From: Desulfobacterales bacterium
GTDB lineage: Bacteria > Desulfobacterota > Desulfobacteria > Desulfobacterales > UBA11574
Assembly: GCA_024641825.1 (NCBI GenBank)
Contig: JAHECI010000004.1
Coordinates: 1 to 33,935 of the forward strand
Direction: 5' to 3'
Length of the DNA stretch: 33,935 nucleotides
Shown: positions 7,034-32,023 of the stretch, piece by piece
How the letters are laid out: each line of letters starts with the position of its first letter
How positions within the stretch are numbered: position 1 is the stretch's first letter
Translations under genes and position numbers: made by a program
Notes under the pieces: generated by a model
The model's input: the letters and a program-made list of their open reading frames with translations, nothing else
Databases searched by the model: none
Told to the model about the DNA's origin: nothing

Positions 7034-7069
7034 TCACCGGTCGCGTAAAAAATCTTTTTAAGAAACCAT
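7034..7069. terminator. hairpin between rpmF and rpiB resembling repeat-element tips
   Basis: The stretch reads GGTCGCGTAAAAA-tc-TTTTTAAGAAACC, an imperfect inverted repeat with an AT-rich centre. Its outer sequence resembles the tips of the repeats at 30755-30879 and 31001-31192 (gacggtttcgtaaaaag type). It may be an intrinsic attenuator after rpmF, or a relic in which the two ends of such an element were joined. Confidence 0.4.
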
Positions 7070-7074
7070 CAAAA

Positions 7075-30596: not shown

Positions 30597-30754
30597 GGTT
30601 TAATTCTCCTGGTGAAAATATAGCATAATTCTAATGGTATTCGTATTTGATGGCCTTGCAGACGGTCAAAAAAAGAGGCCTTTTTACCAGATTGTTTTGT
30701 ATTGAGCACAAAAGGAAATTACTATATGTTGTAAAAAAGCATGTCAATAAAATT

Positions 30755-30879
30755 TGATGAACTCGAAAAAAGTCTGATTTTGCTCGCTCCGCAAGCAATT
30801 TTTAACGCCAGACGCATCATGAATCTTTCTCCAAAATTGCTCGATGTCGCTCACAAAAGATTTTTTACGAGACCATCAA
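30755..30879. repeat. palindromic repeat, short (internally deleted) copy
   Basis: This ~125-nt element runs from TGATGAACTCGAAAAAAGTC to GATTTTTTACGAGACCATCA, with inverted ends and inner GCAAGCAATTTT/AAAATTGCTCG. It matches the outer parts of the copy at 31001 but lacks its ~67-nt central arm. The 605-nt gap 30597-31201 holds both copies; the remainder (30597-30754 and 30880-31000) shows no gene. Confidence 0.85.
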
Positions 30880-31000
30880 ATTTAAAGCTTGGTTTTTCGT
30901 CTTCTTGACGGTGCCGGAATGTTGGACTATCATCCAAAAATCGGCAGGGCCATAACCCAAAAAAAATGTCACAAAAAGAAAAAATTTACAACCAAGGGCT

Positions 31001-31192
31001 GATGAACTCCAAAAAAGTCTGATTTTGCTCGCTCCGCAAGCAATTTTGGGATTCATGACCCGTCTGGCTAAATTGCAAGAACTCGGGCGAACGCCCTCAA
31101 ACAGCTTGAAATTTTTAGCGCCAGACGCATCATGAATCTTTCTCCAAAATTGCTCGATGTCGCTCACAAAAGACTTTTTACGAAACCGTCAA
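31001..31192. repeat. palindromic repeat, long copy before pnp
   Basis: The 192-nt element begins TGATGAACTCCAAAAAAGTC and ends GACTTTTTACGAAACCGTCA. The inner arms CATGACCCGTCTGGCTA and TTAGCGCCAGACGCATCATG pair, and GGGcgaacgCCC forms the apex. It ends nine bases before the phosphorylase ATG. The track ORF 30865..31167 spans the two copies and is not a gene. Confidence 0.87.
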
Positions 31193-31201
31193 GGACTCAT
31201 T

Positions 31202-32023
31202 ATGAGAAATTATAAACATAAAGTGTTTGAAACTTCAGAATTCTTGAAAAAACATATCAAAACGCCACTCCTAACCGGGCTTATAACCGGTACGGGTCTC
31301 GGAGAAAGTTCGAAATTCTTAGACATATCTGCATCCTTTGAATATGAAGATATTCCGCATTTTCCCACATCAACGGTGGAGAGTCATTACGGGCGGCTTC
31401 TTTTCGGAGAAATCCGGGACAAACCGATCATGGCCATGCAGGGGCGTTTTCATCTTTATGAAGGCTATTCGCCCCTGGAGGTGACCTTCCCCATACGGGT
31501 GATGCAGGCGCTCGGTGTTAAAACCCTCATCCTTTCAAATGCTGCCGGCGGTCTGAACCCAGAATTTAATGCCGGTGATATTATGATCATTCGCGATCAT
31601 ATCAATTTAACCGGTTCAAACCCCTTGATCGGCCCCAATGAAGCGCACTGGGGAAGTCGGTTCCCGGATATGAGTGCGGCCTACGACACCGGGCTGATGG
31701 ACCTTGCGGAAAAGGCCGGAAAGGATGAAGGCATCTGTTTGCAAAAAGGGGTATTTGTGGGACTGAAGGGCCCGTCCCTTGAAACGCCGGCCGAAGTTCG
31801 CTTTCTAAGGAGCATCGGTGCCGATGCCGTAGCTTTTTCAATCATACAGGAGGTTATTGCCGCCATCCATGCAGGGATAAAGGTGCTCGGCCTTTCCACC
31901 ATAACCAACGTACACGATCCGGATCGACCGGTTCCCGCAACGGTCGAAGAAATAATCGCCGTGGCCCAGCAGGCCGCGCCAAAGCTTGAAGCGATTATTA
32001 AACATGTGATTGAAAACAATTGA
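31202..32023 (+). CDS. purine nucleoside phosphorylase (PNP-I family)
   Basis: I start this at ATG 31202 (273 aa, MRNYKHKVFE); the track start at 31157 lies in the repeat. It is a trimeric-type PNP/MTAP homologue: phosphate loop 'TGTGLGESS', 'GRFHLYEGYSPLEVTFPIRV' with the active-site His, 'LSNAAGGLN' and 'GPSLETPAEVRFLR'. The usual base-site motif VGMSTVPEV reads 'VAFSIIQEV' here: Met is replaced by Phe and Val-Pro by Ile-Gln, while the Glu is kept. Substrate preference may thus differ from inosine/guanosine. The later 'STITNVHD' keeps the Asn. A link with the MTA/SAH deaminase downstream (purine salvage) is plausible. The promoter, if any, lies in or before the repeat. Confidence 0.92.
   Translation: MRNYKHKVFETSEFLKKHIKTPLLTGLITGTGLGESSKFLDISASFEYEDIPHFPTSTVESHYGRLLFGEIRDKPIMAMQGRFHLYEGYSPLEVTFPIRVMQALGVKTLILSNAAGGLNPEFNAGDIMIIRDHINLTGSNPLIGPNEAHWGSRFPDMSAAYDTGLMDLAEKAGKDEGICLQKGVFVGLKGPSLETPAEVRFLRSIGADAVAFSIIQEVIAAIHAGIKVLGLSTITNVHDPDRPVPATVEEIIAVAQQAAPKLEAIIKHVIENN

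Follow-up and report, generated by a model that had tools for sequence, protein, structure and literature searches.

A miniature inverted-repeat element of Desulfobacterales, inserted twice before pnp and probably shortened in place at one site

Two copies of a palindromic repeat upstream of pnp

How did a long and a short copy of the same palindromic repeat come to stand before a single gene, and does the short copy derive from the long form? The question is raised by the first 33,935 nucleotides of contig JAHECI010000004.1 (the window), from a draft genome (456 contigs, 87% complete) of an uncultured relative of sulfate-reducing bacteria; the gene is pnp, encoding purine nucleoside phosphorylase (31,202–32,023; NF006054 and TIGR01700, both above cut-off). 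Features below lie on the forward strand, except that target duplications and a possible remnant near 7 kb are given without strand. The explanation that we favour, with a probability of roughly 0.9, is that the repeat is a miniature inverted-repeat transposable element (MITE), that the two copies were inserted separately, and that the upstream copy lost 68 bp in place, the loss presumably caused by replication slippage and the insertions presumably by a transposase supplied from outside.

Copy 1, an internally deleted form of 124 bp, extends from TGA to TCA at positions 30,755–30,878, and copy 2, the full-length form of 192 bp, occupies positions 31,000–31,191. The initial annotation, which had placed them at 30,755–30,879 and 31,001–31,192, was right about both copies and off by one base in the bounds. 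The copies share orientation and are separated by 121 bp; being separate insertions (see below), they are 'tandem' only in a loose sense. Their outer parts are nearly identical, as had been noticed (98% over the left 48 bp and 95% over the right 83 bp), and the inner arm described as missing from the short copy is indeed absent, but measures 68 bp (31,040–31,107 in copy 2) instead of about 67. Copy 1 is flanked by an AATT target duplication (30,751–30,754 and 30,879–30,882); for copy 2, the likely duplication is AGGGC (30,995–30,999) and AGGAC (31,192–31,196), with one mismatch.

Copy 2 consists of three nested stems, namely an outer stem formed by the tips, a middle stem (31,050–31,068 with 31,120–31,138) and an inner hairpin. 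Its predicted fold has an energy of −65.9 kcal/mol (z = −6.4), compared with z = −4.0 for copy 1, and in both cases none of 200 shuffled sequences was equally stable. The segment missing from copy 1 comprises the left arm of the middle stem together with the entire inner hairpin; the right arm, whose counterpart in the long copy pairs with 31,050–31,068, is orphaned at 30,807–30,825. Retention of this arm without its partner points to a deletion rather than to primitive simplicity. A 100-residue frame across the element had no NCBIfam match, and an Rfam scan of the whole window had none either. The outer tips had also been reported from a hairpin at 7,034–7,069. Two facing tip-like stretches are present there, at 7,035–7,071, but 6 and 4 of their 21 positions are mismatched, and the hairpin may at best be a degenerate, tip-only remnant of the same family.

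The element family and the search for its transposase

The collection and classification of genome copies that had been proposed yielded long and short forms alike, not one form only. With the long copy as the query, 66 matches were obtained in the host draft genome; the collected copies include about 27 of 190–193 bp, 17 of 66–67 bp and a single one of 124 bp. The size forms of the element are 192, 124, 110, 73, 69 and 67 bp, of which 192 and 67 bp constitute classes and the others are rarer. The collected copies also include a second subfamily, of 153 or 179 bp. The 153-bp subfamily has tips in common with the first, whereas the interior is different (L086 201–353, L087 475–653, L094 475–627, L058 1501–1679); several copies carry the tip doubled in tandem with a 26-bp spacing, which brings them to 179 bp.

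Both ends of the element carry the terminal inverted repeat TGA..G..TCGTAAAAAGTC, and the facing tips pair. In four genomes of the genus, 71 of 96 copies are flanked by an exact target duplication of 4–5 bp, compared with a mean of 4.6 and a maximum of 12 in 2000 random re-pairings of the flanks; the remaining 25 copies lack an exact duplication, as would be expected of old copies. Targets tend towards AANNTT, and the duplications are of the ANNT type. Relatives of the element were detected in 28 of the 60 genomes searched (host included), and the tip alone occurs in many draft genomes of Desulfobacterales and other 'Deltaproteobacteria'. Locus L076 of G007, a complete genome of the family, contains the inner hairpin sequence (query bases 69–116) within a repeat with other outer parts, which suggests that element families swap inner and outer modules.

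The elements are short, lack coding capacity, are present in many copies with inverted ends and target duplications, and have empty orthologous sites. The multiplicity, the inverted ends, the 4–5 bp duplications and the presence or absence at orthologous sites identify the family as a non-autonomous MITE, presumably mobilised by a transposase provided in trans. Papers searched for the tip sequence gave unrelated hits only, and those on MITEs that name Desulfobacter or Desulfobacterales contain no description of this element family.

A transposase with matching ends, which had been suggested as a check, was not found in the few transposase families, genomes and tip-fetched loci searched. At transposase loci of the PF01609, PF05598 and rve types in five to six genomes, the inverted ends do not match the tips. 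The complete 5.3-Mb genome G060 contains many tip pairs of a 133–135 bp form, none of them at the spacing of an insertion sequence. Among loci fetched with the tip, a search for facing tips 0.6–4 kb apart around a transposase returned only L230, with no transposase; positions 307–1266 of this locus form a composite of 960 bp that has the tips of the family, an AAAT duplication and another repeat inside, and its frames, read by eye, resemble a degraded group II intron protein. Frames beside unpaired tips yielded no transposase cluster, the exact tip was absent from viral contigs, and plasmids gave no match to the long copy. The family would depend on a transposase that is encoded elsewhere and recognises the tips of about 20 bp. 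The full terminal inverted repeats and target duplications suggest that this enzyme would be a DDE-type transposase and not the tyrosine transposase associated with REP elements.

Insertion and shortening at orthologous sites

The history of the two copies can be read from sister genomes, all of them drafts. G003 has no insertion at either pnp site. G002 carries a 192-bp copy (L265) at site 1, with the same AATT flanks as in the window, and none at site 2; the host genome carries the 124-bp copy at the first site and the 192-bp copy at the second. G001 gave no pnp match. In G002 and G003, the flanks continue through both insertion junctions. Given that one sister genome has only the site-1 copy and the other has neither, copies 1 and 2 are products of separate insertion events, and given the 192-bp copy with the same AATT duplication at site 1 of G002, the host copy at that site became short only after it had been inserted. 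The upstream insertion dates from an ancestor common to the host and G002 and measured 192 bp at that stage.

Aligned to L265, its ortholog, copy 1 differs by a simple deletion whose junction slides over exactly GCAATTTT (30,795–30,802), one repeat being left of two. This 8-mer is the longest direct repeat with a spacing of at least 20 bp in a representative full-length copy (L003); in copy 2 of the window, the second repeat reads GAAATTTT. Judged by this alignment, the orthologous pair shows the 124-bp copy to be an in-place deletion derivative of the 192-bp form, the origin that the initial annotation had put forward. In the host lineage, 68 bp were lost between two GCAATTTT repeats that flank the hairpin arms. 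Deletions of this kind, between short direct repeats bracketing hairpin stems, are what a polymerase slipping on a folded template classically produces. The position of the junction, at an 8-bp direct repeat flanking the stems, is what the earlier suggestion of slippage predicts, and we infer that the polymerase slipped across the folded hairpin during replication; slippage of polymerases at hairpins in vitro has been reported (PMC4134008).

The pnp site is not alone. Orthologous sites were identified by matching both flanks between genomes, and of the 10 clean sites occupied in two genomes (a count that excludes a complex eleventh site, L040/L113), five have the same form in both and five differ. 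Besides the pnp site (124 bp in the host, 192 bp in G002), the differing sites include L060/L061 and L098/L308, each with 67 bp in the host and 192 bp in G002 and with the junction at TTGCTCG. At the other two, the two genomes carry different deletion products (110 and 67 bp at L105/L250, 67 and 69 bp at L095/L296), which requires a longer common ancestor. Comparison of orthologous sites shows that the recurrent 67-bp class arises from the same kind of in-place loss, here between TTGCTCG repeats. The eleventh site consists of an adjacent tip and a 67-bp copy in the host (L040 1361–1521); in G003, it holds a 192-bp copy of a divergent subfamily without a target duplication (L113 496–687).

These comparisons bear directly on the alternatives. 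That the two copies result from tandem duplication or misassembly at one locus might be suspected from two like copies 121 bp apart in a draft of 456 short contigs; however, each copy has its own target duplication, the sister genomes carry one copy or neither, and their flanks span both junctions, so that we consider this extremely improbable. Collapse of the repeat in assembly, raised at the outset as a concern, is likewise unlikely in view of a junction, a target duplication and several substitutions that are unique to site 1. A very improbable reading, in our estimate, is that the short form came first and became the long one by gaining an inserted inner palindrome, whose target duplication the repeats would be, although short forms are common and 7-bp direct repeats, TTGCTCG, stand on either side of the inner piece in the 192-bp form. 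The second TTGCTCG belongs to a stem instead of lying outside it, orthologs at two sites are different remnants of a longer element, and the divergent 192-bp subfamily lacks the repeat pair, yet has equal length and nesting. For copy 1 of the window, this reading is contradicted already by the unpaired arm, which must reflect a deletion.

Ectopic recombination (gene conversion) between copies, in place of slippage, could also replace one form by another in situ. Near-identical copies are numerous, and two copies on contig C371 and one on C306 (L005, L013, L015) each share one flank with different partners, a pattern that fits crossing-over between copies, assembly chimerism or a strain mixture. 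Against this, the 124-bp form is unique among the collected genome copies, so that no donor was seen, copy 1 retains site-specific substitutions on either side of the junction, and the junctions fall exactly on short direct repeats. We regard recombination as an unlikely source of the form differences and retain slippage as the preferred explanation.

The pnp leader and related elements

A promoter-like site for pnp, TTGACG-17-TATCAT (30,905–30,933), is kept in G002 and G003, and G009 has an altered version of it in a comparable position. Copy 1 precedes this site by a short distance, and copy 2 separates the site from the start codon at 31,202, a position in which the element would be transcribed as a leader hairpin. 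The long copy had been said to end nine bases before pnp; we count 10 bases, which become 9 when the following A is assigned to the element. The last base of copy 2 (31,191) and the duplicated target together read AAGGA, at the distance of a ribosome-binding site. In the predicted leader fold, this stretch is, beyond its first few bases, less open than in G002, a weak indication that initiation may be lowered. Control of pnp by copy 2, as proposed initially, is plausible; more tentatively, a large leader hairpin might change the stability or the translation of pnp mRNA. An in-frame ATG within the element would allow a 15-residue extension of the pnp product (window positions 31,157–31,201) that is absent in the sister genomes.

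In a further genome, G013, the conserved pnp start is preceded at a distance of 10 nt by a 152-bp element that belongs to the other subfamily (75% identity to L088); this insertion is an independent event. Tip-bearing elements also occur upstream of pnp in other genomes of the family (L267, and L268 on the reverse strand), one of them ending 10 nt before the start.

Among 28 diverse copies of 190–193 bp, 20 of 53 pairs have at least one change on both sides, and two-sided changes number 99 cells, compared with 24.6 after shuffling and 4–18 with the partner slid; the count was made on an alignment of related sequences from which the structure was also predicted, and much of the covariation is a difference between two subfamilies and hence traces to few events. 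Moreover, a palindrome whose arms exchange sequence by template switching would also keep them matched without selection, and covariation is thus no proof of RNA function. A selected regulatory RNA of pnp, similar to a riboswitch or an attenuator, might be argued from this covariation and from the unrelated, tip-sharing G013 element before pnp, but copy 2 is missing at pnp in the sister genomes, copies are scattered genome-wide, Rfam offers no match and no site resembling an intrinsic terminator was found on the pnp strand, which together make such a role quite improbable. A broader reading, in which the nested hairpin is maintained, its arms changing together across the order, and repeatedly lands in the pnp leader, so that long and deleted forms would be settings of one expression switch, is speculative and also improbable. 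A mobile element that entered the leader remains our preferred reading.

REP and REPIN elements are palindromic, extragenic and present in many copies, as is the present element, which differs from them in having full terminal inverted repeats and target duplications. In behaviour, it is closest to the Correia elements (CREE, or nemis) of Neisseria, to which we know of no sequence relation. Both are small and non-coding, with inverted-repeat ends and discrete full and internally shortened size classes; however, the target of CREE is TA (sometimes CA), whereas the present element duplicates 4–5 bp of an AANNTT-like target, and its shortening is documented in place, by orthologous sites and repeat junctions. 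CREE fall into classes of 153–157, 105–107 and 69–73 bp, are often located 5' of genes and in some instances occupy the leader that separates a promoter from its gene and are cut by RNase III; the copy in the mtrCDE leader of Neisseria is a tested example of such placement (PMC2649163).

The Chunjie MITE of Geobacter uraniireducens, at 178–235 bp with conserved ends (PMC10969869), is likewise a MITE of variable size from the broader former Deltaproteobacteria; its full length is larger, and the comparison covers size and the presence of conserved ends. Reduced copies of QMITE1 and QMITE2 of Coxiella burnetii grade from full length to REP-like (PMC10969869), a series comparable to that seen here. 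The loss reported for QMITE2 is terminal, whereas the present element keeps its tips and loses its interior.

Descriptions of long and short MITE classes in bacteria usually compare copies within genomes. Here, the change of form was caught at single orthologous sites, with the longest direct repeat predicting the deletion junction, and hairpin-driven deletion thereby becomes measurable across sister genomes, five of ten occupied common sites differing in form. MITEs as a kind are already known; this one is new and unusually well resolved, and pnp is a locus at which the element entered the 5' leader in one lineage only.
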